Shown here: positions 20,683 through 55,316 of the stretch, one piece after another
How the letters are laid out: the number at the start of each line of letters is the position of its first letter
Position numbering within the stretch: position 1 is the first letter of the stretch
Source: a virus
Reading direction: 5' to 3' (one strand)
Length of the DNA stretch: 55,995 nucleotides
Virus record (IMG/VR): IMGVR_UViG_3300019892_000038
Location: 1-55,995 of that record
Position numbers and translations under genes: made by a program
Notes under the pieces: generated by a model
The model's database searches: none
Told to the model about the DNA's origin: nothing
Seen by the model: only the letters and a program-made list of their open reading frames with translations

Positions 20683-23600
20683 TTAGTCACCTCCGCTCCG
20701 CTTTCGTGATTCCCAATTGCTACGCCCGCCTGCCGGGTACTCTTCAACCTCTTCTTGGCTTGGCTCTGGACCGCCAGACATCATTCCACCACCGCCCATC
20801 GCGTTGACAGTGCGGTCTTTCTGTCCGGCAACACCGGCGTAGTTAGCCGTATTCATATGCTGCTCTGCGAGTGACTCAAGATTCTCACTCGACAGTTCAA
20901 GCGCCGCATCTTTACTCATGCCTTCAACAGCGTTGGCAACTATTTCCGCGTGTTCTTCTTTTTCGGCGTTTGCCTGTCTGTTGAGCGTATCTTCGACCAT
21001 CGCCTTCAACTCTTCAACTTCGCGTTTGACGCTCTCGAAGTTCTCCTTATCAACGACGTTATTCATCATCTCTTCGTCCTCTTCATCCTCCTCGTCGTCC
21101 TCGTCCTCGCCACCATGCCCATCACCGTGCATTTCGTTCGTGATGTTGAGGCTTTCTTCGAGGGCGACGAGTTGCTCGTCGGTCATTCCTTCAAGCTCCG
21201 ATACGCCAAACGCCGATTCTGCTGCCAGCGTCTTGATGTCCGTATTCATATTCACAACTGTGTCCGTGTTTGTATTCGCGTCCGTGTCTGTATCCGCATC
21301 CGCATCAGTATCGACCGTATTGGAACTATCCGGTGCGTCCCAACTACGGAGATTATTTTCGTTCTCCTGATCGGTGTAGATGTACTTGAGGACCTCTTGG
21401 TCCATCATCTCACCCTCTTCGCTCATCTGGTCAATAACCGCAATCATCTTGCCATCATCCGGCTCGGCGGTTCGCTGATTTCCGTCAACAGTCCGTGAGC
21501 CATCCTCGACAATTTCTTTGACCTTTCCGTACACCGTGCCACCGGACCAGTCCCATTTGACCGTATCACCCTTCGACATCGCATTAACGGTGTAGTCACG
21601 GGACTTTCGTACCGGTTCAATCAGATCGTAATCGCTCTGCGTGTTCGTCATCGTGTCGTCATCATTACTCGTCGGTGTGTCTGTATCTGTGCCTGCATCG
21701 ATGTCCGTATCTGCATCAACAGTCGTGCCATTCAGTGCCGACACGAAGTCTTTGAACACATCAAGTGCAGATGATGCATCGTCAGTTGCTGACGTGTCTC
21801 CACCAGCACCGTCACCGTCAGTATCAGCACTATCAGCACTCAGACTGTTGAGTGTATTGACAACCGTCTCAACTGACAGGTCGCTCTGAGATGTGGCGTC
21901 AGACGCGGACCTCTCAATCGACGTTACATACGCGTTTGCGAGCGCACGTCGATTTGTTGCATGATCGCTGTCGAGCGCGTTGATGATAGCGATAGTTTCT
22001 GTTTCGCCCATCGCCCACTCTGATGCGAGTCGTGGTGCAACATGGTCACGCACATTCATCGCGTCAATGTGTGGACCAACACCACTGTCAATATCGACTG
22101 CTGGTGGCTCGTAATTCATCGCCATCGTTACTGTGTCACGCCCTTCTGCATCTGCGAGGGCGGTCTGTACATCCACCGCGTTGAGTGTCGAAGACTGCTC
22201 TGACACCGCTGCGGCATACGCCGCTCTGTCTGCCGGATCATCGTCGTCAAGTGCGGAGATGAAGGCGTTGACAAGCGCCGTATCCATCTCCCACTCACGT
22301 GCGAGGAATGGCACGACATTGTGACGTATTGAAATATCGTCTACTTCAATATCCGTGTCTGTCATAGCAATTGGATATGCGTTGAGTGAAAAGTCCTCAG
22401 CTGCGTCGATTGCCGACTCAAGATCATCTTTTGTCCCTTCAGCCCAGTTCAACCCAGTGCCGGTTCCAGTACCACCCCACAACGAGTATTGGACTTCCCC
22501 ACAGCCACTCAGCCACGTCTCTTCCGACCAGTTTGGCGGCGTCGAGTCAATACCACCATCTAAATCAGACTCGTGACTGTCGAGATACGTCGGGATTGGG
22601 GTGCCATTATCACGGGTCAGGAAGTCCTCGGGGGCGAGATTACCATCGATGATCTGATTCGCTCGTTGCTCACCGACACCGGTGCCACAGTCGCCTAACT
22701 CATCAGGATACGTCTCTGTTTTCGCCTTCAGTCCGGCTTCAGCAGCATTGATAACTGCATCAGGTGGTGTCAGATCGACCGTCCGATCACCAATATCAAC
22801 ACTAACATCGTTTGTTCGTGGACGGACATGATAGGTGCGTGTGTCGGTCGCACTGACATCCGTGTACTGTCTGTCTGTATGTGAGGTGTGTGGTGATGGA
22901 CGACTCCGCATCGGACGCTCGTATGTGATCCGCCCAGTTGCGGCGTTCATCGTCGGCATCATATCCGACGCCGCCATATCACGGTCAACGTCCATGTCCA
23001 TCTGCAGCTCGGACATATCCATCTCGGCGGTCGGCATAGATGCATCACCGTCAGCCATATGCACGACATCTGAGTAGCCCGCGCTGTACGTGAAGCCACT
23101 ATCAACAAGTGACCCATCTTGTACACCGTGAATACTGACCATCACCTTCTTCGACTCGTCAGCAACGTGCTCGACACGACCAAAGAGATTCGGCAATCCC
23201 TGAAAGTGCACAAAGTCGCCTTGTGACCACTTTGGCGTCGGCATCGCGTTTGCACGCATACTATCAGGCATATCACGCGCCGAGCGTGGCGCATCCCAAC
23301 TGCGTAGATTATCCTCATTCATCGCGCCATCATGCGCGTATTTCAGGACACGTTGTCCGGTCGGCTCGCTCGCATCGCTATATGTCTCGATATCAACAAC
23401 GATCTGATTTGCACCGGCACACTTTCGCTCTGCAATAATCTCAGCACACCCATTTCTCACAACCGTCCGAATACGACCGTGCTGTGTCTCACCGTCCGTA
23501 TCCCATTGGACGTACTCACCGGCACGGATATATCTGAGATTCCCGCTTGCAGTGCCAATGTTTGTGACGTACTCGAAATCAGACTCACGCTGCTCTTTGA

Positions 23601-24969
23601 GCCGTACCTCGTATTCACCGTGGGTGTCACACGGCATATGGATCGTTACATCATCACGATATCGATGCGGGTGACTATGTATCTCACCGTCACAGCCAAG
23701 CTCAAAGGAGCGTTCACGTGCCTTCTGCTCATCGACAAATCTATCTGTGCCATCAGTCGGCAGTATTGTTTGATTGTCGTAGTTCGCGTTGACAGACTCG
23801 CCGTTTTCATCATACTCATTTCCAGACGGCCACTCACCGCTATGCTCTGCAAGCAGTGAATTTGTCTGTGAGACAATCGAGTCCTCAGCAGGTGAATGAT
23901 AGGCGAGTTGTCTGGCAGATCGTAACGCATCCTCGTTTAGCTCATCGTCTGTGTTGACAACCGGGTATGATCGGACTTGCCCAGCCCCATCTGGGTCACG
24001 TGCCGTCCCGACAAGTGTTCGGTCGGCAACATACGAGAGCGCGTCGTTAGAGACGGTATTGACAGTGATATCCTCAGGCGGCTCACTATCTTGTTGCTCG
24101 TAGTACGCGGTGACGTACTCGGTGAACGTCGGTGGATTCCATTCTGCTGATGTCAAGCCATCATAGGAGGGCGTGCGTGCCGTGTCACGAGCGTTTGCAT
24201 GAAACCCACACCGACAGGCACCAGCAGAACACCCGCCGATTGGCGCTGCTGTCTCTGTCGTCTGACGGGCGTTGGCACGTGGGGCACCGCACCCGTCTTC
24301 CCAGCTACACCGCGCTTGAAACTCGTCAGACGGGAAGATTGCGATATGGTCTGGGATGATATATCCCTGTTCGATATCGTAGGATTGCCCGTTATGTTTC
24401 CCACCAGATTGATCGTCGTCAATTGTCGCATAGCCAGCGGAGACGCTCACGTCTTCGTCTGATTGTAAGAGGTCAACAACGTCAGACGCGAGTCCACCAA
24501 TATCGCGAGCTTTCTCAATGTCAATCCATGCTTGCACACGGAGTTTTTCATTGTCGATAAGTTGTGGGTCATATGCCTGCCCAATAACTGTCTCTGTGTA
24601 TTCTGATGCGAGATCAGCGGTGCGTGTTGGGTTCTCTGGATGAATGTAGGTAAGCGGTGTGCCAGCCCACATGTCGGAGGATTCACGCAATCGCTGTGAC
24701 GAGAGTAATTCTTTGGTGTTATACTCGGGGTAGTCAAGCACCATTTCCCGTGCGGCAATCACGGGGAAGACAAGATACTCGCGTCCATTTCGCGTCACGG
24801 TCTCTGCCTCTGCATCCATCGTCACGGTCTGGTTATTGCCGCGTGGGAAGGCACTGCTCGCATTTGCAGTTATATCCGAGTCAGTACCGCTCGATGGTGT
24901 ATCAACACAGCGACCGCTAATGCTGTGATATCGAATCGGTCGATTGGAGAAAGGGTGTGCTGCTGTCAC
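20683..24969 (-). CDS. Giant prohead protease / scaffold fusion with Tudor-like modules
   Basis: A 1428-residue protein (an alternative ATG at 24819 would remove 50 residues). Residues about 50-235 resemble DUF2213/XkdF-type prohead proteases (EYLVFPVIAAREMVLDYPEY, then GTPLTYIHPENPTRTADLAS and GYIIPDHIAIFPSDEF). Tudor-like DUF2945-like modules follow near residues 483 and 590 (GDFVHFQGLPNLFGRVEHVA), and a third near 1140 (GDTVKWDWSGGTVYGKVKEI). A CGTGVGE...LWGGTG segment lies near 780-835 and duplicated helical units near 885 and 975. Residues about 1240-1345 form an acidic scaffold-like coiled coil. Typical DUF2213 proteins are about a third of this size, so the middle of about 1000 residues is an expansion. 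Its job is capsid maturation; the Tudor function is unknown. Confidence 0.75.
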   Translation of the reverse strand: MTAAHPFSNRPIRYHSISGRCVDTPSSGTDSDITANASSAFPRGNNQTVTMDAEAETVTRNGREYLVFPVIAAREMVLDYPEYNTKELLSSQRLRESSDMWAGTPLTYIHPENPTRTADLASEYTETVIGQAYDPQLIDNEKLRVQAWIDIEKARDIGGLASDVVDLLQSDEDVSVSAGYATIDDDQSGGKHNGQSYDIEQGYIIPDHIAIFPSDEFQARCSWEDGCGAPRANARQTTETAAPIGGCSAGACRCGFHANARDTARTPSYDGLTSAEWNPPTFTEYVTAYYEQQDSEPPEDITVNTVSNDALSYVADRTLVGTARDPDGAGQVRSYPVVNTDDELNEDALRSARQLAYHSPAEDSIVSQTNSLLAEHSGEWPSGNEYDENGESVNANYDNQTILPTDGTDRFVDEQKARERSFELGCDGEIHSHPHRYRDDVTIHMPCDTHGEYEVRLKEQRESDFEYVTNIGTASGNLRYIRAGEYVQWDTDGETQHGRIRTVVRNGCAEIIAERKCAGANQIVVDIETYSDASEPTGQRVLKYAHDGAMNEDNLRSWDAPRSARDMPDSMRANAMPTPKWSQGDFVHFQGLPNLFGRVEHVADESKKVMVSIHGVQDGSLVDSGFTYSAGYSDVVHMADGDASMPTAEMDMSELQMDMDVDRDMAASDMMPTMNAATGRITYERPMRSRPSPHTSHTDRQYTDVSATDTRTYHVRPRTNDVSVDIGDRTVDLTPPDAVINAAEAGLKAKTETYPDELGDCGTGVGEQRANQIIDGNLAPEDFLTRDNGTPIPTYLDSHESDLDGGIDSTPPNWSEETWLSGCGEVQYSLWGGTGTGTGLNWAEGTKDDLESAIDAAEDFSLNAYPIAMTDTDIEVDDISIRHNVVPFLAREWEMDTALVNAFISALDDDDPADRAAYAAAVSEQSSTLNAVDVQTALADAEGRDTVTMAMNYEPPAVDIDSGVGPHIDAMNVRDHVAPRLASEWAMGETETIAIINALDSDHATNRRALANAYVTSIERSASDATSQSDLSVETVVNTLNSLSADSADTDGDGAGGDTSATDDASSALDVFKDFVSALNGTTVDADTDIDAGTDTDTPTSNDDDTMTNTQSDYDLIEPVRKSRDYTVNAMSKGDTVKWDWSGGTVYGKVKEIVEDGSRTVDGNQRTAEPDDGKMIAVIDQMSEEGEMMDQEVLKYIYTDQENENNLRSWDAPDSSNTVDTDADADTDTDANTNTDTVVNMNTDIKTLAAESAFGVSELEGMTDEQLVALEESLNITNEMHGDGHGGEDEDDEEDEEDEEMMNNVVDKENFESVKREVEELKAMVEDTLNRQANAEKEEHAEIVANAVEGMSKDAALELSSENLESLAEQHMNTANYAGVAGQKDRTVNAMGGGGMMSGGPEPSQEEVEEYPAGGRSNWESRKRSGGD

Positions 24970-31727: not shown

Positions 31728-34700
31728 TTAAAGCTCACGACCGAGGAATGAATCAAGATAGTGTTGGAGATTATACGTCTCACCGGGTTCATTAACGGGC
31801 GTTTCAGTTTGCTGTTCATCAACAACAGTCCCGTCGTCAATATATCCAATCAGCAGTTCTTTCACATATGCTTCAGCGACAAAATCATCGGAGCTTGTCG
31901 CGGCATAATCGGAGATCCCATTCTGAATATCGTCACCAACGTCATCAAGTACGCGATCAAATTTGACGGGTTCAACAATCCCAGCAGCACCACGCGGACC
32001 GGTGTTCATCTCTCGCATATGATGGACCGCGTGTGCAAATTCATGTAACGCCGCATCACGAAGCCGACTGCTAAAGAGCTTATACCCGGCGTCACTGCCG
32101 AGCAATGCCGAGCGTTGGAAGTTGTCTTCGGCGTTGAACATAACCGCGAATCTGCCCTCATCATCTACCGCGTCATTATAGAAGTTCGGTGGTCCATAGC
32201 TGGCAACTGGATTGCCGTCGTAATCGTCAGGTTTGGCACCACTGGGTAGATCAGACCGAATCTCATCAATCTGTGATGGTAGTTCGTCTTCACGCTCTTG
32301 GATAACACCGATTGCGCGTGTGACTTCAGCTGCCTGTCGCGGATTGAAGTTCTCATATCGAACAGTTGTATCCGCAGGCGTTGCCGCGTCAGCAGTTTTC
32401 TCGATCTCAATTACTTTTCTCTCGTCTGCAAGTTCGGAGTCATCAATATCGTCAATCACACCGATCAGATTATTTCCAGTTGGTCCGTCTGCCGGTGTTG
32501 GCGCTGGTGTTGATGTCGAGTCTGAGTCTGAGTCTGTCTCTGTGTCTGTGTCTGTTGAACCTCCACCACCGCCATCAACGATATCACTACCATTACCACT
32601 ACCACCACTATCCTCGCCATCACCAGTAATGTCACTTTGCGGATTTGCGTCTGGAATATCGTCAATTGTTGCGGCGCTTCGTGGCGCACCTTCAATTGTA
32701 ATTACGCTATTTGGATCGAGGATACCGCGCACATCCGCATCGTTATCCTGTAAAAACTGTAGCATCTCCTTTGTTGTGAGGTCTGTCACAGCACGCCAAT
32801 CATCAGCAAACTCGAATGTGCTTTCAACAAATTTCCCGGTATCAGGATCACGAGGGTGTAGCTCCGGCACCCATCCATCGCCCGTATCTTCCGCGTTCCG
32901 TCGCATTTCCTGACGTGCACGCGGTTCACCCTCCATCTCACGATCATCAACAGGCGTCACCTCCGGGCGACCAGCCTGTACCCAGTGGACCCATCGTGTG
33001 AGCCATGCGCGTGTTATTTCTTGCAGTGCATCAGGAAAGACCGGCACTGAGCGAATGACCTCACGTGGGCGTGCGTTCTGTCGCGTGTTCTGTCGTGTCA
33101 CTGCTTGTGATAATTCGGCGTTACTATTGCCCGGACGATAGTAAATATCGCCATTGTAGCGTGTCACATGATACGTCGGTCCGAGACCAAGTTTCACCGC
33201 ACGTTGCTTTGCATACTTCGGTGCATTGTACCGATACCGTTCACGATTGAGTGTCATAGGTGAATTAGTTGTCTCTTCAGTGGGTACACCCGCATCAATA
33301 TCCGAACGCTCTCTGGCAATTGCCTGTGCGGTCTCTCGTGCGGCGTCACGAGCATCATCTGACGGTTCGACATCCGCTGTCGCAAGCGGTGACTCACCGA
33401 CTAAGGCTGGCGGTAGGTCGTCGCGAAGTTCTGATTCAGCATCTGCCGGATATGCAGTGTCAAATGACCGTCCTGTCGTCCCACGCGTGTCAATTCCGTT
33501 TCCGTTTCCGTTTCCGTTTCCGTCTGTGCCCGATTGACTGTGCACCCATCGCTTTAGCGTCCGGATTGCAGCGCTTGTCTGACGGACCACATTTGTGGTT
33601 GCCGTCTCCTCGGCTACTGACTCGTCTTCAAGTGGGCGTCCCATGAGTGTTTCATAGAAGTCTGTGATGTCAACTGGTATCTCGTCCGCCTCACCACGAA
33701 ACTGTTTGACGTACATCTCCGCGACAAACTCTGGTGAGATTGTTGATCCATACGTCGAAACAACCTCGTCAATCCGACTCTGAAGTGATGGCAGCTCACT
33801 GATATCCACCAAGTTCTTGTCGTCATAGCCGGTCGCATCACCGTTTTCAGCACGTTCAAGATGGACTGCATGTGCCATTTCGTGCACGATCAGATCACGA
33901 ACTTGACGCGATACGATATACCCATCATCATTCAGATTCTCAACACGCGGACCAGTCATTTTCGTATTACTAATTTGAATCCCACTCCCCTCGTCAATCT
34001 CTGGGTCAAAGTCCTCGTTTGAAACATGACTGGCGATTGGCATTGCGTTATCTTCCGACCGGTGATAATCGATTACCGGTTGTTTCAGGTCGCCTTTGAT
34101 TGACTGTAATCGGGTCGGCAACGCGCCAAATTCCTCCTGAAACTCACCCACTGCAATACCGACTTCGCGTGCCTGTTGTGGATCTAATGAGCTAAAATCT
34201 GTCTCTAAGCCAGTCACCGTCTGAATGAGATCGCCAATACGCTCAGATGGCGATGGACCAGCATCAAATTTCGATGTTTGGTCGCTAATCTCTCTCACAG
34301 AATCAGCTAACTCTGTACCAGATGGCATCTCATCAGCCGGTGTATCACTTGTTGGGATCAGCGGATCAACATCAGCATCAGCATCATCCTGATTATCGTC
34401 GCCATCATCCGGCTCGTCAGTAAACATTGACTCAAGATCGCCAATCCCGTCAATGTTATCTGGACTGTCGAGATTCCGTGGCACGTCTTCAACAGTCACC
34501 GCACTGTTCGGATCAAGTACCGAGTCAATCGGCGCACCGTTATTGTCGAGATAGCCAAGCATCGACTCTGATGATACATCAAGCAGTGCTGATTCATCAC
34601 CGGGGATGTCGAACGACCGCTCAACAAATTTGCCTGTGTCCGGGTCACGCGGGTGTAAATCCGGTTCCCACGTCTCATTCTGGCGGGCACGATATCGACG

Positions 34701-36215
34701 TGTGTTTGTTGTCTGTCCGTCCGACGCATCATCGCTATCTGTGGCATCAGCTTCTGGAACCGTGTCACCAAATGCACCGGTACTGCTATCATCATATCGT
34801 ATTCGCACCGGAATATCATCAGTCTCCTCAGACAATACCGCCGCAATCGAGCGATGGCGTCCTTCTTGGATCGATGTTGGACGCCCGTCAGATCCAATCA
34901 CAACAAGTGGCAATGGCACACCGTCACCCTCTGGTGCTTGCTCAACGTCGAACACTTCGACTAGCTCATCAACCTGTGACGGTAAAATGTCCTTCACCCA
35001 ATCTGATTTTGACGCACTGCCACCCTGTTGCAGTCCTTGCTTCCAAATCTCTGCCTGTATCTGTAACGAGTCCTCGGCTGGCATTTCAACAACTGTATCA
35101 TCCGGAAACTCGACCGTGAACGGATCATCAACCTCGTCTGCATCAACAACCTCACCCTCAAACTCGGTGTCGCCAAACTCACCGCGCTGTAATTTCTCTG
35201 CAACGACGGGTGGCACGTCATCTGGTACGTCCTCGACACCAGCCGACTCGGCATCTTCTGCCCGATATGCACCCGCAAGATCGTCGGCGATTGCTTGTTT
35301 TTCCTGCCGACGTTGTTCCGCTTGTGCCTCTCGTTCTTTCTCAACATCCGGGTGAACCATCGTATGTGTCGCCTCCCACCCAGTTAATACATCCTGTTTA
35401 CTCAGGTCAATCTCCTCACCGTCAGTCGTTTCGATAATCGTGCCCGAGCGTTCATCACGTTTGGTCACACCAAATGCTGTCTGTGTTCCGCCACCGACAC
35501 CAAGCCCACCGAGCATCCCATCACCGTCCTCCTCTTTCTCAAGCCGGACAATCGTGTTTGGCACCTTCGCTTTTTGCATCACATTCGTATCTGACACACC
35601 GGTGATATCAGATGGGTCATCCGCCTCGCTGAACAGTGACTCAGCCTCTGTCGCCATTTCAGTCAGACTTAACCCACCCGGTCGTTCAACAAATCGCCCC
35701 TCAGAATCACGTGGGTGTAATGCCGGATTCCACGCGTCGTCATTCTGTCGGATACGTCGTCGTCGCTGTCGATTAGTGCGTTCTTGCACCTCGCCTTTTG
35801 CAGCTGGTGCGTCACTTAAATCGCGTTCTGAGACCGGTGTCACATCCGGACGCCCCGCCGCAACCCACGCTGCCCATCGAATCAACCACGCACGTGTAAT
35901 TTCGCGCAATCGATCTGGTAACACCGGCACCGAACGAATAACATCACGTGGACTGAGCTTCTCTGATGGCACATTTGACATCGGACGTGCATGCACCCGT
36001 GTGGGTGTTGTGTACTGTTGATATGACGCGTAGAACAACTCATCTTTGCTTGACCCCGGAAAGTAGAGCGTCTTGCCAGATGATACTGTTTCAACATAAT
36101 AATCGGACCCAAGTCCAAGCGCCCGTGCCCGTGCTTTTGCATCAGCCGGTGTCGTTTGTGCGTGCTCCGCGACTATTGGTGGGTACGTATCAAAACTGTC
36201 GTGATGATGTGCCAT
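31728..36215 (-). CDS. Giant head-associated protein with two zincin motifs, ParB-like segment and repeated modules
   Basis: A 1495-residue protein. The ATG at 36215 has AGGAG six bases ahead, better than the GTG 27 bases upstream. Near residue 25 it has the YHV/PG module, repeated near 1015. PREVIRSVPVLPDRLREITR at about 95 recurs near 1060. HPRD-x-x-GxFVE tags lie near 165, 520 and 1120. A ParB-like segment (VVIGSDGRPTSIQEGRHRSI) lies near 448. Zinc-metalloprotease-like HEMAHAVH (about 778) and HEFAHAVH (about 1392) end each half. The layout shows internal duplication. It sits between portal and protease, where Mu-F-like capsid maturation proteins are found. Active proteolysis is inference from HExxH; remaining zinc ligands are not confirmed. 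Confidence 0.7.
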   Translation of the reverse strand: MAHHHDSFDTYPPIVAEHAQTTPADAKARARALGLGSDYYVETVSSGKTLYFPGSSKDELFYASYQQYTTPTRVHARPMSNVPSEKLSPRDVIRSVPVLPDRLREITRAWLIRWAAWVAAGRPDVTPVSERDLSDAPAAKGEVQERTNRQRRRRIRQNDDAWNPALHPRDSEGRFVERPGGLSLTEMATEAESLFSEADDPSDITGVSDTNVMQKAKVPNTIVRLEKEEDGDGMLGGLGVGGGTQTAFGVTKRDERSGTIIETTDGEEIDLSKQDVLTGWEATHTMVHPDVEKEREAQAEQRRQEKQAIADDLAGAYRAEDAESAGVEDVPDDVPPVVAEKLQRGEFGDTEFEGEVVDADEVDDPFTVEFPDDTVVEMPAEDSLQIQAEIWKQGLQQGGSASKSDWVKDILPSQVDELVEVFDVEQAPEGDGVPLPLVVIGSDGRPTSIQEGRHRSIAAVLSEETDDIPVRIRYDDSSTGAFGDTVPEADATDSDDASDGQTTNTRRYRARQNETWEPDLHPRDPDTGKFVERSFDIPGDESALLDVSSESMLGYLDNNGAPIDSVLDPNSAVTVEDVPRNLDSPDNIDGIGDLESMFTDEPDDGDDNQDDADADVDPLIPTSDTPADEMPSGTELADSVREISDQTSKFDAGPSPSERIGDLIQTVTGLETDFSSLDPQQAREVGIAVGEFQEEFGALPTRLQSIKGDLKQPVIDYHRSEDNAMPIASHVSNEDFDPEIDEGSGIQISNTKMTGPRVENLNDDGYIVSRQVRDLIVHEMAHAVHLERAENGDATGYDDKNLVDISELPSLQSRIDEVVSTYGSTISPEFVAEMYVKQFRGEADEIPVDITDFYETLMGRPLEDESVAEETATTNVVRQTSAAIRTLKRWVHSQSGTDGNGNGNGNGIDTRGTTGRSFDTAYPADAESELRDDLPPALVGESPLATADVEPSDDARDAARETAQAIARERSDIDAGVPTEETTNSPMTLNRERYRYNAPKYAKQRAVKLGLGPTYHVTRYNGDIYYRPGNSNAELSQAVTRQNTRQNARPREVIRSVPVFPDALQEITRAWLTRWVHWVQAGRPEVTPVDDREMEGEPRARQEMRRNAEDTGDGWVPELHPRDPDTGKFVESTFEFADDWRAVTDLTTKEMLQFLQDNDADVRGILDPNSVITIEGAPRSAATIDDIPDANPQSDITGDGEDSGGSGNGSDIVDGGGGGSTDTDTETDSDSDSTSTPAPTPADGPTGNNLIGVIDDIDDSELADERKVIEIEKTADAATPADTTVRYENFNPRQAAEVTRAIGVIQEREDELPSQIDEIRSDLPSGAKPDDYDGNPVASYGPPNFYNDAVDDEGRFAVMFNAEDNFQRSALLGSDAGYKLFSSRLRDAALHEFAHAVHHMREMNTGPRGAAGIVEPVKFDRVLDDVGDDIQNGISDYAATSSDDFVAEAYVKELLIGYIDDGTVVDEQQTETPVNEPGETYNLQHYLDSFLGREL

Positions 36216-36247
36216 ATCAAATCTCCTGTGCTCAATCAACACGGTGA

Positions 36248-38946: not shown

Positions 38947-40578
38947 TCAGAAGTAACTGCCCGGTACTGTTTGCACGCTATCTGTCTCTGCCGATGCCAT
39001 TGCGACTGCCATATACGCTGCATCCAAATAATCTGGACTCTGATTTAAACGCCCTGCGACATCATCCTTCGGCGATGCGTGATACCGATTTGCATCATAC
39101 GCCTTACTGTACTTCTCCTCCAACGTAATCTCACGTGCGCCAGCTAACAACTCCGTTCGCAATCGCCCGTTCCGGATTGTGCCACCGTTCTGTAAAAACT
39201 CACCAAGCAAACAGACGCCCTCGGTCCACTTGTTGCCATACTCCTCTGCATTATACGCATTTGCCTTTGCCTTGAATCGTTCGACGTTCGGATACCACTC
39301 ATTGACGCGATCTGCTGACCCAGACCCACTGCCAATCGAGTCAATCGCAAACTTACAGCGCCATGTACTCTCATCAATATTCTCACGCACAATCCGCTCA
39401 TTATCCACATGATTGCCATACTTCCACGTTTCGAGTACCCGTATCTCATCGCCAAATACCCCGGCTAAGACGTTGCCATCTGCCGCTGTCCCGGCTCCTC
39501 GTGCCACGTCCCATCCGAGTCCATCCGGCGGCTGTGTCGGTGGCACAGTCTGCGTGTCAATATACGATGTCTCAACATCGTCAACCGTGTACGGTCGTAA
39601 CGCATCTGCCGCCTGTGGTGGAATCTCTCCCAATCGACGCCGATACCACTGCACACTCAAATCATCACGTTGCCAACTATCTGCCGCAATCTGTGCCGCG
39701 CCCTGCCATCCACCACCCTCCTCGACCGGCCACGACTCACCATTCCACGACTCCCAATCCTGCTTAATCTGTGACAGGCGTGTCATCTCCGGTATCATCT
39801 TATCCTCAACACTCGACTTCAACTTCGGATACTGCAACACATCGTCAATCACAACCGATCCATCTGCATCGCGCTCATACGGATCTTCGTGGGTCATCTC
39901 AAGCTGGACGTTGAACGCATCAAAACTACTGTACTGTAACGTCGTCCACGCATCCGACTGCATCATCCGATACACAATATTCGTCTCATCACGCGGTGGA
40001 TTCGCAACAGCAACGATCTTGTCATTCGCATCCGTCAATAACGACTCAAGCGAATCAATCATATCTGCATCAACACGATCCTTATCAGCCTCCTCAATCA
40101 CCGCCAACAAGTGCTCATTATGCACACCCTCAAGCTCACCCGAGTCCTGTGGCGCAGCGGCTTCAAGATAATGTTCTGGGTCACTCGTCTCAATCCGTGG
40201 CGGGTTCAACAAATACCGACCCGGAACATACGATGCAATATCACCATGCAAACTCTCAATCGGATCACAGTACGTCCGCTTCAACTTCTGATATGTCCCA
40301 CTCGTCGCAATCACCGTCGTCGGATAATTGACATTCAAAAACGCGAGACTGAAACATGCCAAAATGTACGTCTTCCCAAATCCATTCCCACCAACAATCA
40401 ACACGCGCTGGTTCTCTGCAATCGTGTCGATGATCTCCTGCTGTGTCAGACTTGGAATGACTGAGAGATAATCCTCGATCCATTGCCCGTACTTTGCATC
40501 CGCGTGATACCACCCCGGCGGGTGGGCATCGGCTGGCGATAATCGCCGCTCATCACCACGAGACCCTGCCATATCCAT
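38947..40578 (-). CDS. Terminase large subunit
   Basis: A 543-residue packaging motor. Walker A IVGGNGFGKT ends at residue 70, Walker B LLAVIEEAD is at 157-165, and the coupling motif IVAVANPP is near 188. The C-terminal RNase H-like nuclease has GLGWDVARG, with its first Asp, IDSIGSGSG, and SPKDDVAGRLNQSPDYLDAA containing the later Asp. It pumps DNA into the prohead and cuts concatemers. An alternative ATG lies two codons in. The gene is preceded by the motif-dense non-coding island and followed by the zinc protein, portal and capsid genes. The likely small subunit is the HTH gene at 44288-44836. Confidence 0.88.
   Translation of the reverse strand: MDMAGSRGDERRLSPADAHPPGWYHADAKYGQWIEDYLSVIPSLTQQEIIDTIAENQRVLIVGGNGFGKTYILACFSLAFLNVNYPTTVIATSGTYQKLKRTYCDPIESLHGDIASYVPGRYLLNPPRIETSDPEHYLEAAAPQDSGELEGVHNEHLLAVIEEADKDRVDADMIDSLESLLTDANDKIVAVANPPRDETNIVYRMMQSDAWTTLQYSSFDAFNVQLEMTHEDPYERDADGSVVIDDVLQYPKLKSSVEDKMIPEMTRLSQIKQDWESWNGESWPVEEGGGWQGAAQIAADSWQRDDLSVQWYRRRLGEIPPQAADALRPYTVDDVETSYIDTQTVPPTQPPDGLGWDVARGAGTAADGNVLAGVFGDEIRVLETWKYGNHVDNERIVRENIDESTWRCKFAIDSIGSGSGSADRVNEWYPNVERFKAKANAYNAEEYGNKWTEGVCLLGEFLQNGGTIRNGRLRTELLAGAREITLEEKYSKAYDANRYHASPKDDVAGRLNQSPDYLDAAYMAVAMASAETDSVQTVPGSYF
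40535..40547. repeat. GGCGATNATCGCC palindrome, copy 6
   Basis: GGCGATAATCGCC inside the first codons of the terminase gene (residues about 10-15). Confidence 0.6.
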
Positions 40579-41015
40579 CCGTATGCCATTCGCTCGTATA
40601 TCCCTGTCGTGAACACTGATGGTCCCATCATACTACGTAGGGAGGGTTATACCCAAGAATCCCAGTTCGCTGTGTTTCGGAACCGTGCCAATGGACCGGG
40701 GGTGAATTTCAGTTTGCTGACAGAAACTCCCCACAGGGGCTGAGACCGTCTTAGACTGTCTTAGATCGTTTCTAAGCGTGTCTAAGCGTGTCTCAGTGAG
40801 TCTCAGATATGCAAATCTCTCAGACTGGATTAGACACGTTTAGCGGACTTCTTAGTAGCTCTTAGTGTGTCTTAGCGTATATCGCGACGGTCGTATCTCA
40901 GACAGATTTTAAGATACTAAGAGCACTTCTTAGCGTGTCTCTGTCGGTCGTTATCAGACTAATTCAGACACGTTTAGAGACCACATAACAGTATTAGAAT
41001 ACGTGATATAGATAC

Positions 41016-41118
41016 CTGTCTGAGACCGTCTTAACGGTCTCTTAGCGTATCTTAATCGAATAGGATACAAACCACTAGGCTAGTGAGAAAAGCGCCTAAG
41101 ACCGGTCTCTGTCGTGTC
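41016..41118. repeat. Direct repeat of about 103 bp, copy A
   Basis: Begins CTGTCTGAGACCGTC and ends near GACCGGTCTCTGTCG, with three mismatches to copy B, 134 bp away. It holds the inverted repeat GAGACCGTCTTAACGGTCTC at 41022-41041 and CCACTAGGCTAGT. Confidence 0.75.
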
Positions 41119-41149
41119 GTGTCGTGTCGTGACCGGTCTCTGTCGGTCT

Positions 41150-41252
41150 CTGTCTGAGACCGTCTTAACGGTCTCTTAGCGTATCTTAATCGAATAGGAT
41201 ACAAACCACTAGGCTAGTAAGAAAAGCGAATAAGACCGGTCTCTGTCGGTCT
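41150..41252. repeat. Direct repeat of about 103 bp, copy B
   Basis: Same order of elements as copy A; the inverted repeat is at 41156-41175. It differs at GTGAGAAAA/GTAAGAAAA and GCGCCT/GCGAAT. Confidence 0.75.
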
Positions 41253-41468
41253 CTGTCGTGTCGTGTCGTGTCTAGGGGCTGCAGTGAATTAGTGGTCGGT
41301 CTCTGGAATCCTACCCTCACATGATCGTCGAAGGGGAGGATAATAAGTAGTCGGCGTATCGAGATACCGTAAGACCGGCGTTAAAGACGTATCTCGCCGG
41401 TATAACGAACGGAAAGAAAAGAGGAATTAGTTTTGTGTGAAACGCCGGTAAGAGACCGTGAGACCGAG

Positions 41469-42131
41469 TTATTCTAGGTTTTCAGGATATCCGAACCTTT
41501 CGATACTAAGCCCGCCTTCGATACTGAATTTTGCCCACGTGTCGTTATTACCGTCGTATCGCTGGAATTTCAGGGTCTCAGCGTCTGAGACTAGCCTTCT
41601 CACAGATTTAGTACCTGATTCTATGTCGTCCTCGTAAACGTCTATGTAGGCGATAGAGACCGTCTCCTCGTCGTTTTCGACGGTCTCAGTATCCACGACG
41701 GTGTTTTCACACTGGTACGGATTAGAAGTACTATTCTGATATGGCGTTTTTAAGAGGTATTCGACTGTGTGACCCACTTCTAATTCACTGATAACGCCGG
41801 TCTCAGAGTCTGAGACTTCTTTTTCAGTTTTGAGATTTTCGTCGTTGGAATTATCTTTCGTGTAATCCTTCTTATCCTTCTTTTCGACTTTCGTCTTATT
41901 AGCTAATTCTCTGAAGTGTGATAGGACTGTACTTCGGATATTTCCGGTCTCTGAGACCTTAGCGTACGCTTCACGTTCGGCGGGAAGTGCACTGATTAGG
42001 TCTCCGGTATCGGCGTTTTGAATCTTAGCTTCTATTTCCCGAATTTCGTCGTCTGAAAGCCTCTCGTCGTAGTTTTCGCGAACTTCTGATAGGTCGATAC
42101 TAGCGCCGTTCGTAGTGTCTGAATCAGACAT
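41469..42131 (-). CDS. Hypothetical protein, Lys-rich, inside motif island
   Basis: A 220-residue protein. The ATG at 42131 (MSDSDTTNGASIDLSEVREN) is preferred over an upstream codon. The first half is helical and charged with a Lys-rich run (KVEKKDKKDYTKDNSNDENL). The second half is a beta-rich domain (GHTVEYLLKTPYQNSTSNPY, then TVSIAYIDVYEDDIESGTKS). Lys use is unusual compared with the acidic neighbours. GTCTCAG/CTGAGAC words continue through the coding DNA, so its base context matches the island. Function unknown. It may be a DNA-binding protein of the packaging or replication region, or part of a foreign insert. Confidence 0.6.
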   Translation of the reverse strand: MSDSDTTNGASIDLSEVRENYDERLSDDEIREIEAKIQNADTGDLISALPAEREAYAKVSETGNIRSTVLSHFRELANKTKVEKKDKKDYTKDNSNDENLKTEKEVSDSETGVISELEVGHTVEYLLKTPYQNSTSNPYQCENTVVDTETVENDEETVSIAYIDVYEDDIESGTKSVRRLVSDAETLKFQRYDGNNDTWAKFSIEGGLSIERFGYPENLE

Positions 42132-42146
42132 TACGATTAAACACAT

Positions 42147-42859
42147 GAGAGGAAGGTTAATAAGTGTTTCGAAGTCTATCTAATGACTACTAGTAATTAC
42201 AGACAGTCTTTTTATTATATTACATAATTATAGACTGAGACAGGCTTAGATAGCTTTAGAGACTCTTAGAATCGATCTGAGCTAGTCTCAGTATCTCTCC
42301 TAATTCTGTATTAGTAATGCGCGTATATGCGCGATATTGCTCAATTGCTCTGTTGGTCTCATTGATCTGCTTGCGCGCAACGAGATCAATGATTAGATGC
42401 GCACAACGAGCCAACTGCAAGCATGATCCGAGCACAACGAGCCAAGCGCAACTGATGGCGCAACAAGTCACGATGATCTGCGCGGAACGCACCGACGAGA
42501 GTTTGAGCAACCGAGCAACACGACACTCCACGGTCGTTCATCCGCCACGCCTCATCTGCACGCTGTCGCAGTCGCTGGGACGCTGATGCTCAGTGTCAGG
42601 TCATTCGGGCTTCATCGAGAGACTTGACGTACCCAGATGTCGTCGCTGAGTCTCAGCTGCATCCGAGCGTGCTGTCATTCATGTGTGGGCAGTGGACTCA
42701 GATCAATCAGCATCTGTCGGAACAGTCATCGCGCTGTTGTCACGCACAGTGTGGCTACCGGATGGCGGATGGCGGTTGCCGGATGGCGGATGGCGGTTGC
42801 CGGATGGCGGATGGCGGTTGCCGGATGCCGGATGACGGTTGGCGGTTGCCGGTTGTGAG
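42147..42859. other. Gene-poor region between hypothetical genes
   Basis: Left part (42235-42300) repeats GTCTTAG-type words again. The middle (42310-42540) has several GCGCAACGAG/CACAACGAGCC units and one doubtful ORF. The right part holds a 21-bp tandem array. No other gene was found. Confidence 0.55.
42256..42531 (-). CDS. Doubtful 91-residue ORF
   Basis: MECRVARLLKLSSVRSAQII continues with IIDLVARKQINETNRAIEQY and RITNTELGEILRLAQIDSKS. The C-terminal half looks helical and protein-like, and the N-terminal half hydrophobic, but the DNA consists of GCGCAACGAG-like repeats and Cys content is high for this genome. No promoter or coupling is visible. It could be a small membrane protein or repeat noise. 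Confidence 0.25.
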   Translation of the reverse strand: MECRVARLLKLSSVRSAQIIVTCCAISCAWLVVLGSCLQLARCAHLIIDLVARKQINETNRAIEQYRAYTRITNTELGEILRLAQIDSKSL

Positions 42860-42897
42860 TCACCGGTTGGCGGTTGGCGATTGCCAGTTGGCGGTTG
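42760..42897. repeat. 21-bp tandem array (iteron-like)
   Basis: Three exact units at 42760-42780, 42781-42801 and 42802-42822, each two GGATGGC heptamers followed by GGTTGCC. A degenerate fourth unit follows to 42850, then GGTTGGCGGTTGGCGATTGCC-like heptamers to about 42897. It overlaps the 3' end of the next gene. Heptamer-built tandem arrays near gene-poor DNA are typical of iterons or binding arrays; no replication gene is in the window. Confidence 0.75.
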
Positions 42898-43345
42898 TGA
42901 CAACTGATATTGACACGCGGTTGGCGGTTGGCACGTCATGGTCATGCTCGGTGATAATTGAGCGTAGTTGTCTGGTGAGTCGGCTGACACTGGTGACTGC
43001 TTTTGCGTGGTCAACGTGTTGTTGGGCGCTGAAGTGGTCACGGATGCCGGTGAGTGCGGCGTATGCTTCTTGGAGTGTGTCAATGATGATATTGGTTTTC
43101 TGGCGTGTGAGTGTCCGGGCAAAGAGGCAATCGCGTCGGGCGGATTGTGTGTCGGCGGTTGGATGTGGGCGACGGTCGGTGTCGGTGTATGCGACGTTAT
43201 CCATCACGTTCGTCTCAATTGTGTTTCGGAGTGCAAGTGGTTCCCAATGAACTTTGAGTGGCTCAGGAAACCAGTGTTGGGCGTCGAGACTTGTTGGATA
43301 TGGGGACGTCTTCAATGTGTCTGGTGACGTGTGTATGCTGTCCAT
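42860..43345 (-). CDS. Hypothetical protein, 161 residues
   Basis: The ATG at 43345 (MDSIHTSPDTLKTSPYPTSL) is preferred over a start in simple-repeat DNA. The middle PEPLKVHWEPLALRNTIETN, then TRQKTNIIIDTLQEAYAALT and IRDHFSAQQHVDHAKAVTSV, is a helical domain. The C-terminal ANWQSPTANR is encoded by the start of the 21-bp repeat region, so its end may vary. Function unknown. Confidence 0.5.
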   Translation of the reverse strand: MDSIHTSPDTLKTSPYPTSLDAQHWFPEPLKVHWEPLALRNTIETNVMDNVAYTDTDRRPHPTADTQSARRDCLFARTLTRQKTNIIIDTLQEAYAALTGIRDHFSAQQHVDHAKAVTSVSRLTRQLRSIITEHDHDVPTANRVSISVVTTANWQSPTANR

Positions 43346-43646
43346 GTCTTGTAAAACGTAGAGAATGGGCGATAGTAAGTGTGGCGATAGCAATAGATGT
43401 ACAATGGATTGCACGGTACTGTATTGGATTGGATTGCACGGTACTACACTGCACTGCACTGTACTGCATGATACTGCAATTGACTGCAATCAATCGCTGA
43501 TCGAAAGGTGTTTGCTTATGCGGCGCATCTGTCTACTCGCGTGGGTGACGCGTCAAATATCACCCTTTCTCTCCTCACGCGGTTTTCAATTAGTTAGTCA
43601 GTATCGGTGACAATAGAGCATGTCACCAAACGTGTCGGCATCGCAC
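43346..43646. other. Gene-free gap with short repeats
   Basis: It holds two copies of GGATTGCACGGTACT (43406-43420, 43431-43445) and a run of ACTGC/ACTGT pentamers (43440-43480). TCTCCTCACGCGG (about 43570) follows. Nothing like a gene is seen, apart from small frames in repeat DNA. Confidence 0.55.
43440..43480. repeat. ACTGC/ACTGT pentamer tract
   Basis: The same pentamer as at 25549-25587, in opposite orientation. Confidence 0.55.
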
Positions 43647-44287: not shown

Positions 44288-44836
44288 TTATTCGTCGTCA
44301 ACACCACTCGTTTGTTTCAATGCTTGCATATATGCTTCGTCCGGGTCCATGTCAATCTCAACGCGATCCGGTTCTTCATCAAGCTCGCCCACATCAAAGA
44401 GAAACTCGTTGAACTCTAGGCGTTTGTCTTGGGCTTGTGCCCACATGTCAGCGGCTTTCTCGCGCATTTTGCCAGCGGCACGGATGTCACCCGCTGCTTC
44501 CAATTTCTCGGCTTTCTCACCCAACTCACGCGCTGTTTTGGTGTGCTCTTCAATCACTTTCTCGCCAAGCATTGTTGTTTGGGCGACGGTTTTGTCACCG
44601 GCACGCTCACGGTAGTATTCTTGCAGGCGTTGGAAGTCGTGACTGATTGTGCTTTGATCGACATCGTATCTGGATGCGAGTTCGGTTTGGTTTACTTCCA
44701 TGTTGCGTGGGTGTCCGTATCGCTTGAGGTAGCGATATAGCTCTGCACGTCGTTCGACGTATGAGTAATTTGCTCGTGGTTTGTCGCTTGGTGGACTGAT
44801 TGCTGCGTACTCTGGTTGGTCGCTATCTTTTGCCAT
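44288..44836 (-). CDS. HTH DNA-binding protein, candidate small terminase subunit
   Basis: A 182-residue protein. The ATG at 44836 (MAKDSDQPEYAAISPPSDKP) is preferred. Residues about 30-85 contain a helix-turn-helix (NQTELASRYDVDQSTISHDF, then QRLQEYYRERAG). Residues about 85-150 form a long coiled coil (LGEKAEKLEAAGDIRAAGKM), and the C-terminus is acidic. N-terminal HTH, central oligomerising coil and acidic tail is the architecture of many TerS proteins; an HTH regulator is the alternative. It is on the same strand as TerL but 3.7 kb upstream. Confidence 0.55.
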   Translation of the reverse strand: MAKDSDQPEYAAISPPSDKPRANYSYVERRAELYRYLKRYGHPRNMEVNQTELASRYDVDQSTISHDFQRLQEYYRERAGDKTVAQTTMLGEKVIEEHTKTARELGEKAEKLEAAGDIRAAGKMREKAADMWAQAQDKRLEFNEFLFDVGELDEEPDRVEIDMDPDEAYMQALKQTSGVDDE

Positions 44837-45159
44837 CGCTGTCTGTTGATTTGGTCGTGACCCACCCAAATTAGTCTTATGAACGGCACACTACTGCGTT
44901 CAACCCATCGCCGTCATGCGATATCGGGTCATACACAACTGAAATCACGCCATCCATAACCCAACTATATACACGCCAATATGGACGGGCAACGCGGTAT
45001 CAACAGCGCAACTATGGCTCACAAGTGCAATGTATAGGCGCTCAACGCGGATCGATCAATGGCGTGTTGGGGTCGGGGTCGCCTTCAACCGCCAAAAAGA
45101 GCGCTGCAAGTGATTTGTGCCCTGTGCAACTGTCGCTGTGCAACGCGGTGTGTCGGCGC
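44837..45159. other. Gene-free gap with CAACGCGG repeats
   Basis: This 323-bp gap has three copies of CAACGCGG (44990, 45043, 45141). No ORF of normal composition is seen on either strand. Confidence 0.5.
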
Positions 45160-52820: not shown

Positions 52821-54008
52821 ATGAAGGTGTATCTCGATGGCACGGTTCGTGAAGCCGCACGCGAACGGATCAACTTCTTTTTCGACCACTTCGATAACAT
52901 CATTGCTGCTGTCAGTGGCGGCAAAGATAGCACGGTTATTTTCAACTTGGTCAAAGATATCGCCGAAGAACGCGATGAGCTGCCAATTTATTGCCTCTGG
53001 ATAGATCAAGAGGCAGAGTATCAGGCAACTGCCGACACGGTTGAACACTGGATGACACAGGATGGCGTTATCCCACTATGGTTTCAGATCCCAATGAAAA
53101 TGACCAATGCAACAAGCGACAGTGAGAATTTCTTGCATTGTTGGGACCCGGAACTTGGACCGGACGGATGGATGCGCGAAAAGCACCCACTTGCGATTAC
53201 CGAAAATACATATGGCACACAACGCTTTGAGAAGCTCTTTGGCAATATACTCAAAGAGGAGTTTGATGATGGTGGAAAGACGGCGTTACTCGGTGGGATG
53301 CGCGCCCAAGAGTCACCACGTCGGCATGTGGCATTAACCAAACAGTCAACATGGAACGGGATTACCTACGGCAAGTTTCATGGCTACAGTCGCGACAAGC
53401 ATTTCACGTTTTATCCAATCTATGATTGGGGCTACTCGGATGTCTGGAAGTACATCCACGACACTGATAGAACGTACAATGATGTCTACGATAAGATGTA
53501 CAAAGCCGGTATTCCCATTCCGAATATGCGCGTGTCAAACGTCCACCACGAGCAAAGCGTCAATCTGCTCTTCACATTACAAGAGTTTGAACCCGAAACA
53601 TTTGACGCGCTTGCAGATCGCATTGGCGGTATTCATACGGCTGGACAAATGGGTGATGATGATTACTTCCCAGATGAGCTACCGTATATGTTTGAGAATT
53701 GGCGTGAGTATCGCAACTATCTACTTGAGACGTTAGTTGAGGATAAAGAGCATCGCAAGCGGTTCAAGCGCCACTTTATGACGATTGATTTACGAGCGGA
53801 GCATGACCCCGAAGAATATCCGCGATTGCTCAAGCGCTGCGTCAGAGGGATTCTGGCGAATGATTGGGAGGGTGGATCAACGCTCAAAAGTGCTGTTGCG
53901 CGTGTTGAAACCAGTCCGTATAATGAGATTCTTGAGTGGAAGAAAAACTGGTTGCGCGAAGAGGGCACATGGGACGATCTCAAAAAGAAGGGCATCGTCC
54001 GCGAGTGA
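52821..54008 (+). CDS. PAPS-reductase-family ATP-pyrophosphatase, IbrA-like
   Basis: A 395-residue protein. IIAAVSGGKDSTVIFNLVKD holds the PP-loop SGGKDST at residues 32-38, which adenylates a substrate. GGMRAQESPRR near 150 is the second signature (R-x-x-ES) of this superfamily. The C-terminal third (RVSNVHHEQSVNLLFTLQEF, then FDALADRIGGIHTAGQMGDD) resembles DUF3440 of IbrA-type proteins. IbrA proteins co-occur with ParB-like IbrB, and such a gene follows here after one small ORF. Known relatives act as regulators or in DNA sulfur chemistry; here the biochemistry is unknown. Confidence 0.75.
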   Translation: MKVYLDGTVREAARERINFFFDHFDNIIAAVSGGKDSTVIFNLVKDIAEERDELPIYCLWIDQEAEYQATADTVEHWMTQDGVIPLWFQIPMKMTNATSDSENFLHCWDPELGPDGWMREKHPLAITENTYGTQRFEKLFGNILKEEFDDGGKTALLGGMRAQESPRRHVALTKQSTWNGITYGKFHGYSRDKHFTFYPIYDWGYSDVWKYIHDTDRTYNDVYDKMYKAGIPIPNMRVSNVHHEQSVNLLFTLQEFEPETFDALADRIGGIHTAGQMGDDDYFPDELPYMFENWREYRNYLLETLVEDKEHRKRFKRHFMTIDLRAEHDPEEYPRLLKRCVRGILANDWEGGSTLKSAVARVETSPYNEILEWKKNWLREEGTWDDLKKKGIVRE

Positions 54009-54507: not shown

Positions 54508-54620
54508 CGCGTAATGCGCGTCGACACTGACTGATTGCGTGACCGCCCACTTCGACGGAGTTGCGCCCGTTGGAGTGGGTATTTCGCAATGCCTTAGCAT
54601 TGGTATGTCTAACACGTTGT

Positions 54621-55316
54621 ATGAGCGATCTTGAGGCGGTTAGAGACGCCATTGAATCACTTGTCGATACTGCTGATGATCCAAACGTGGTGTTGAACAA
54701 CGTCCAGTCAATTGTCTCTGAGCTGCGTCCAATTGACGAGTTTCCGATTGACGATGTGAAGTTTGTCCCACTTGAGAAAGTGTCAGCCAATAGCTACAAT
54801 CCAAACAAAGTTGCTGATAACGAGATGGAATTGCTGTATAAGAGTATCAAAGCCGATGGTTATACGCAACCAGTCGTCTGTGTCGAGGATGAGACGTATG
54901 ATGGTGATGAGACCAGATATCAGATTATTGATGGTTTTCATCGCTATATCACGATGAAACGTCATTCGGATATCCGTGAGCGATCAAACGGGCTACTCCC
55001 AATCACAGTCCTCGATAAGACGATGAACGAGCAACGTGCAGCCACAGTCCGACACAATCGTGCAAGCGGCAAGCACACGACATCTGGCAAGTCACAAGTG
55101 GTCTTTGAGATGTTACAGGACGGATGGGATGATGAACGGATTTGTGAAGAGCTTGGGATGGAACCAGAGGAGTTAGCGCGGTTGAAGCATACCAGTGGCT
55201 TTGCGAAACTCTTTGACGATACTGATTACTCACAACCGTGGAAAGCAACCGAACAGTTGCAGGTCGAGAAAGAATTTGATGAGATCGACCATCCACTCAG
55301 CGACGAGTCATGGTAA
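54621..55316 (+). CDS. ParB-like protein, IbrB-like partner
   Basis: A 231-residue protein. The ATG at 54621 (MSDLEAVRDAIESLVDTADD) is preferred over an in-frame start 20 codons up. VPLEKVSANSYNPNKVADNE, then DGYTQPVVCVEDETY and IIDGFHRYITMKRH are the ParB/sulfiredoxin-like fold with its GFHRY motif, replacing the canonical GERR. The C-terminal LQDGWDDERICEELGMEPEE looks like an HTH-like DNA-binding part. Its pairing with the PAPS-reductase-like gene matches IbrAB. ATPase or CTPase activity is not established. Confidence 0.7.
   Translation: MSDLEAVRDAIESLVDTADDPNVVLNNVQSIVSELRPIDEFPIDDVKFVPLEKVSANSYNPNKVADNEMELLYKSIKADGYTQPVVCVEDETYDGDETRYQIIDGFHRYITMKRHSDIRERSNGLLPITVLDKTMNEQRAATVRHNRASGKHTTSGKSQVVFEMLQDGWDDERICEELGMEPEELARLKHTSGFAKLFDDTDYSQPWKATEQLQVEKEFDEIDHPLSDESW

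Follow-up and report, generated by a model that had tools for sequence, protein, structure and literature searches.

Helically spaced CTNAG arrays in a compositionally foreign segment upstream of the terminase gene of a predicted haloarchaeal tailed virus

Results

The terminase region of the virus record

The DNA analysed here (the window) comprises bases 1-55,995 of the 66,403-base IMG/VR virus record IMGVR_UViG_3300019892_000038. The gene for the terminase large subunit, terL, occupies positions 38947-40578 on the minus strand (PHROG 2, E = 5e-15) and its product is 38% identical to TerL of Halobacterium phage ChaoS9. The record also has genes for a portal protein and for a tail sheath. From these three genes and the identity to ChaoS9 TerL, we take the record to be that of a contractile-tailed virus of haloarchaea.

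The gene at 44288-44869 (minus strand) encodes a helix-turn-helix (HTH) protein that we refer to as TerS-like since its counterpart directly precedes terL in at least 10 relatives and it matches the small terminase (TerS) family PHROG 57 weakly. An alignment-based model of the protein (mean pLDDT 71) contains an HTH and two long helices, which is the layout of small terminases (PMC4856287). Fold searches did not bear the assignment out: Foldseek returned nothing from the PDB at E <= 0.001, the hits being HTH regulators with low TM-scores, and the two good matches obtained in BFVD both lacked names. No homologue of the ChaoS9 TerS was found in the record.

Other genes of the window include a phosphoadenosine phosphosulfate reductase-like gene at 52821-54008 (PHROG 2302, E = 2e-87) and two long ORFs. 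The first (31728-36242, 1,504 aa) lies directly 3' of the portal gene and matches nothing in Pfam or PHROG; the second (20683-24969, 1,428 aa) matches DUF2213 and Hva1_TUDOR and may be a prohead protease joined to further domains. Within one virus record, ParB N-terminal-like domains were seen in four proteins, encoded at 54561-55316 of the window and at L004 9028-9693, 11541-12410 and 14166-14945, and a possible methyltransferase fragment (L004 8390-9022) adjoins the ParB-like genes.

A sharply bounded segment with foreign word use

An earlier note on this DNA had described an island dense in the word GTCTNAG before terL. A Markov log-ratio scan delimited one sharply bounded segment at 40734-42316 (hereafter the island) with a score of 328, against 15 for the runner-up segment of the record. 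The island itself served to train the model, which inflates this score, but the dinucleotide and tetranucleotide scans, which had no such training, designate the same place as the top outlier of the record. The dinucleotide odds of CA/TG are 0.62 in the island versus 1.28 in the rest of the record and those of TA 1.10 versus 0.68, and the tetranucleotide correlation is lowest in the island, at 0.14, the lowest non-overlapping window standing at 0.55. The bias spans the island gene and the non-coding DNA alike, and the composition looks closer to that of HF2 or ChaoS9-type haloviruses than to that of the island's own virus.

Counting bore out the density of the words. Between 40739 and 42300 we found 25 occurrences of GTCTNAG/CTNAGAC, when dinucleotide shuffles gave 1.7 +/- 1.4 (maximum 7, n = 500), and 33 CTNAG for 8.7 expected. 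The densities of GTCTNAG and CTNAGAC are 9.0 and 7.1 per kb in the island, compared with 0.28 and 0.35 per kb outside it. In all halovirus loci that we examined the GTCTNAG background is at most about 1 per kb, versus 16 in the island.

Two CTNAG arrays with a 10/12-bp register

The words had also been reported to recur every 10-15 bases throughout the island. Regular spacing proved to be limited to two arrays, at 40740-40990 and 42235-42300, with a step of 10 bp and sometimes 12. In the left array, whose near edge is 162 bp from the terL start on the upstream side, the lag-10 self-match is 0.50 (null maximum 0.39), and seven CTNAG pairs exactly 10 bp apart are present in 40739-41060 for 0.73 expected, a number equalled in none of 20,000 trials. 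The right array lies upstream of the 225-aa gene described below and is likewise enriched in 10-bp pairs (P = 0.004). The array units vary outside a constant CT-N-AG core, and the phase is retained. Inside the 225-aa gene, in contrast, no CTNAG pair is exactly 10 bp apart, and in 41060-41470 the words are mainly GGTCTC/GAGACC rather than CTNAG. The Fourier analysis that had been suggested as a check gave the same division, with a significant result for the left part (P = 0.006) but not for the entire island (P = 0.058).

Two repeats previously given as 103 bp long are in fact 124 bp long; these plus-strand copies, at 41016-41139 and 41150-41273, are 91% identical, are offset by 134 bp and contain the two reported copies of GAGACCGTCTTAACGGTCTC, at 41022 and 41156. 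A long palindrome is also present in the island, which has no match to any Rfam element. Further repeats lie outside it. At 42753-42932, in the same junction between terL and the TerS-like gene but with the virus's own composition, 7-bp units (CGGATGG/CGGTTGG) recur at spacings of 7, 14 or 21 in a low-complexity array, and 43405-43484 holds imperfect repeats of TGGATTGCACGGTACTG and of CACTGCA-type words.

The island gene

The only gene of the segment (P0001; 41469-42146, minus strand) encodes an acidic protein of 225 aa and carries unphased CTNAG and GAGAC words. GTCTNAG-type words occur eight times in this gene, compared with 1.6 under synonymous shuffling (P < 0.0005), and GAG-AC encodes each of its five Glu-Thr pairs, even though GAA is the codon used for 22 of its 30 Glu residues (P = 4e-4). 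The words in the gene are maintained at the DNA level, which supports the earlier claim that the bias resides in the DNA and not in the protein.

Searches of phages, plasmids, viral contigs and 391 haloarchaeal genomes gave neither a donor nor a convincing homologue of the protein or of the island DNA; the haloarchaeal set produced one marginal match (E = 0.009), in a single genome. Pfam and NCBIfam matches of the protein are weak and under the cut-off, and its single-sequence model (mean pLDDT 36) was too poor for use. A transposable element was considered and rejected: the sole long ORF has no transposase match and no target-site duplication was seen, the longest word common to the two ends of the island being 7 bp long and corresponding to the motif itself.

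The terS-like/terL junction in relatives

The island, or anything similar, is absent from all 72 viral contigs with a related terL, and no clear phased array of any kind was seen upstream of terL in the halovirus relatives. In at least 10 relatives the HTH gene immediately precedes terL, so that the junction is closed, whereas here the TerS-like homologue sits 3.7 kb from terL with the island in between. In the two nearest relatives (L022 and L023) the same junction is filled by other genes, over 4.3 kb. Because the junction is closed in the former and carries other genes in the latter, comparison of these genomes favours the view that the island was inserted into a cargo-tolerant terS-like/terL junction. 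The earlier proposal of an inserted segment thus gained support, from the extreme composition, from the absence in the 72 relatives and from the closed junctions.

CTNAG arrays near terL in other viruses

A scan of IMG/VR for 10-bp arrays of four CTNAG units gave at least 120 matches, and a full scan for the reversed word GANTC, the sole control word, gave 116. Clusters were called dense when they held at least seven units in 120 bp, and proximity was defined as a terL within 2 kb. By these definitions terL was close to a dense cluster in 21 of the 51 viral contigs among the CTNAG matches listed, versus 1 of 27 for GANTC (Fisher P = 2e-4), and the array was upstream of terL in 17 of these 21 listed loci. 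The excess was also found with intergenic-like clusters only (CTNAG 20/49 among the matches listed, GANTC 1/12, P = 0.03) and after grouping of related contigs (8 of 17 groups among the matches listed versus 1 of 22, P = 0.003). Within terL-bearing contigs, 21 of the 26 arrays among the matches listed lay within 2 kb of the gene when 14.7 were expected by position (P = 0.009). Among dereplicated large ORFs beside the arrays, TerL (PHROG 2) represented 10 of 28 for CTNAG, among the matches listed, versus 4 of 60 for the control. The terminases beside arrays belong to several families (PHROGs 2, 38 and 979), and in L134 and L199 the array adjoins a recognisable TerS gene. Of the contigs added by a further motif scan, the five with a detected terL all had the array upstream of it.

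Conversely, 30 of the 51 dense CTNAG clusters among the matches listed had no detected terL within 2 kb, and some dense clusters adjoin ribonucleotide reductase genes. Roseobacter phage CRP-7, whose TerL DNA is related to that of an array-bearing contig, has no array near terL. The association between CTNAG arrays and terL is suggestive rather than final, because the tests were devised after terminase-size genes had been noticed by the arrays, a single control word was used and the homology search was partly seeded with those same terminases.

Intergenic 10-bp CTNAG arrays were seen in the unrelated viral contigs L132, L143, L161, L179, L199, L202, L214, L219 and L222, among others, and many of them lie upstream of terL, others (L128 and L145) adjoining ribonucleotide reductase genes; examples of the arrays are CTTAGACCTC in L199 and CTAAGACCTT in L214.

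Discussion

The reading that we tentatively favour, with slightly less than even confidence, is that the island is a horizontally acquired packaging-initiation (pac-like) segment whose array could be wrapped by a small-terminase ring, one unit per turn. The left array adjoins the terminase genes, with 162 bp between it and the terL start codon, and its 10/12-bp register places the sites about one helical turn apart, as suits a TerS ring. In TerS rings, which have 8-11 subunits, the HTH motifs are spaced by roughly one turn of B-DNA, and about 100 bp of bendable DNA is believed to wind round each ring (PMC4737164). Each CTNAG unit would present the same face of the DNA to one DNA-binding motif of the ring, about 8-12 units (80-120 bp) would wrap it, and TerL would thereby be positioned for the first cut. 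TerS would then bind the array and packaging would begin there, the right array and the words within the gene possibly serving as additional sites and the 225-aa protein as a second TerS or an accessory factor of packaging. Against packaging stand the facts that no terL relative carries the array, that a packaging site alone leaves the word bias through a whole coding gene unexplained, and that ChaoS9 has its pac site within a different gene, upstream of the one for the HTH protein (PMC6471424). The earlier note had pictured a multi-protein landing site for packaging, an interpretation that is partly supported overall: the CTNAG arrays near terL elsewhere, in excess of the reversed word, and the spacing of TerS rings (PMC4737164) speak for it, but regular spacing across the whole island did not hold.

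Known packaging sites offer partial likenesses. The pac sites of SPP1 and SF6, like the island, lie by terS and terL, contain repeats and consist of DNA thought to wind round a ring, meeting one HTH at each helical turn (PMC4737164). The SPP1 boxes are however few and SF6 TerS has little sequence preference, with a weak one for TTAGGTT (PMC4737164), whereas the island repeats a single palindromic word many times in a 10-bp register. The haloviruses phiH1, phiCh1 and ChaoS9 share the TerL lineage of the present virus and their site is likewise on the terL-upstream side, but it is a single GC-rich cut site in terS near the stop codon (PMC6471424). The island does not lie inside a ChaoS9-type terS, and ChaoS9 and the other relatives, unlike the island, have no CTNAG array. 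At the left end of T7, CCTAAAG words at positions 175-355, mostly 13 apart, resemble the island in having a CTAA(A)G-type word with near-helical spacing by a packaging end; they differ in their 7-bp unit and 13-bp spacing and belong to an unrelated phage, where they lie by direct terminal repeats.

A broader proposition, which we consider possible but doubtful, is that 10-bp CTNAG arrays upstream of terL are a recurring and so far undescribed packaging-site code, in which the DNA would be spooled with one TerS subunit per turn, and which would have evolved or been exchanged across unrelated bacterial and archaeal tailed viruses. A full-text literature search for CTNAG and phage, limited to open-licence papers, returned no packaging paper.

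The main rival to packaging is that the arrays are plasmid-type partition or operator iterons, to which the 225-aa protein or a centromere-binding protein of the host would bind cooperatively, autoregulating the gene and aiding the segregation of a plasmid-like prophage. The words upstream of haloarchaeal parA genes bear on this directly. When the 300 bp upstream of parA were inspected (set L244-L273 and L309-L313; identity measured to L111:5128-6006), at least three CTNAG were present in 34 of the 35 loci with a parA at least 69% identical to the query, mostly with a 13-bp phase, and in 2 of 35 with a more distant parA. Their core, (T)CTWAG(A), is near the island unit. These iterons look like candidate partition sites and, as in the island, the palindromic core is tandem, phased and intergenic. 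An array lies upstream of the 225-aa gene, as autoregulation expects, and the related viruses phiCh1/pNMAG03 persist as plasmids (PMC6471424). The island phase is however 10/12 bp and not the 13 bp of the parA group, whose iterons are linked to parA and a ribbon-helix-helix (RHH)-like partner and not to a terminase. No ParA is present in the record, where a P-loop match was obtained only in terL among ORFs of at least 80 aa and a haloarchaeal ParA query found nothing, and the 225-aa protein is, by eye, unlike the partner encoded after parA. We regard partition or operator iterons as rather unlikely. As for that partner, the gene that follows haloarchaeal parA encodes a small protein whose C-terminal end looks RHH-like by eye. 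Four-unit 10/12-bp CTNAG arrays were found in only 2 of the 391 haloarchaeal genomes, in one with ParA and Orc1-like genes (by eye) close by, and the other array looks repetitive.

The island might instead have been acquired passively from another replicon, as a moron-like gene accompanied by operator arrays of its own, with no role in packaging, its proximity to terL reflecting an insertion-tolerant junction. A bias covering gene and non-coding DNA, a composition that looks nearer to HF2 or ChaoS9-type haloviruses and the other genes held at this junction by the two nearest relatives all fit such an origin. We nonetheless judge it unlikely: no donor was found among the phages, plasmids, viral contigs and 391 haloarchaeal genomes, the low GTCTNAG background of the halovirus loci examined means that the word is not accounted for by foreign DNA of an ordinary kind, and both the helical phasing and the terL association elsewhere would be left unexplained.

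An iteron-type replication origin, bound by an initiator, would account for the iteron-like arrays, the long palindrome and the duplicated 124-bp repeats, but it is very improbable, as neither Orc1 nor RepH of ChaoS9 has a counterpart in the record by tblastn (a distant initiator, or one in missing sequence, being possible) and the island has no Rfam element. Functionless slippage and drift of simple sequence, to which the simple repeats in the neighbouring non-coding DNA (42753-42932 and 43405-43484) might point, is hardly credible given units that vary about an unchanging CT-N-AG core with the phase kept and a synonymous codon choice in the 225-aa gene that favours GAGAC.

The interest of the packaging reading lies in how headful phages recognise their own DNA, which is unsettled because the binding of the small-terminase motifs tested to date is weak and shows little selectivity for sequence (PMC4737164). 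If the reading is true, a word repeated once per turn by the terminase genes of unrelated viruses would provide a simple and testable sequence rule for this recognition, packaging sites would become predictable in the genomes of uncultured viruses, and an archaeal virus would be able to acquire a packaging site as a module.
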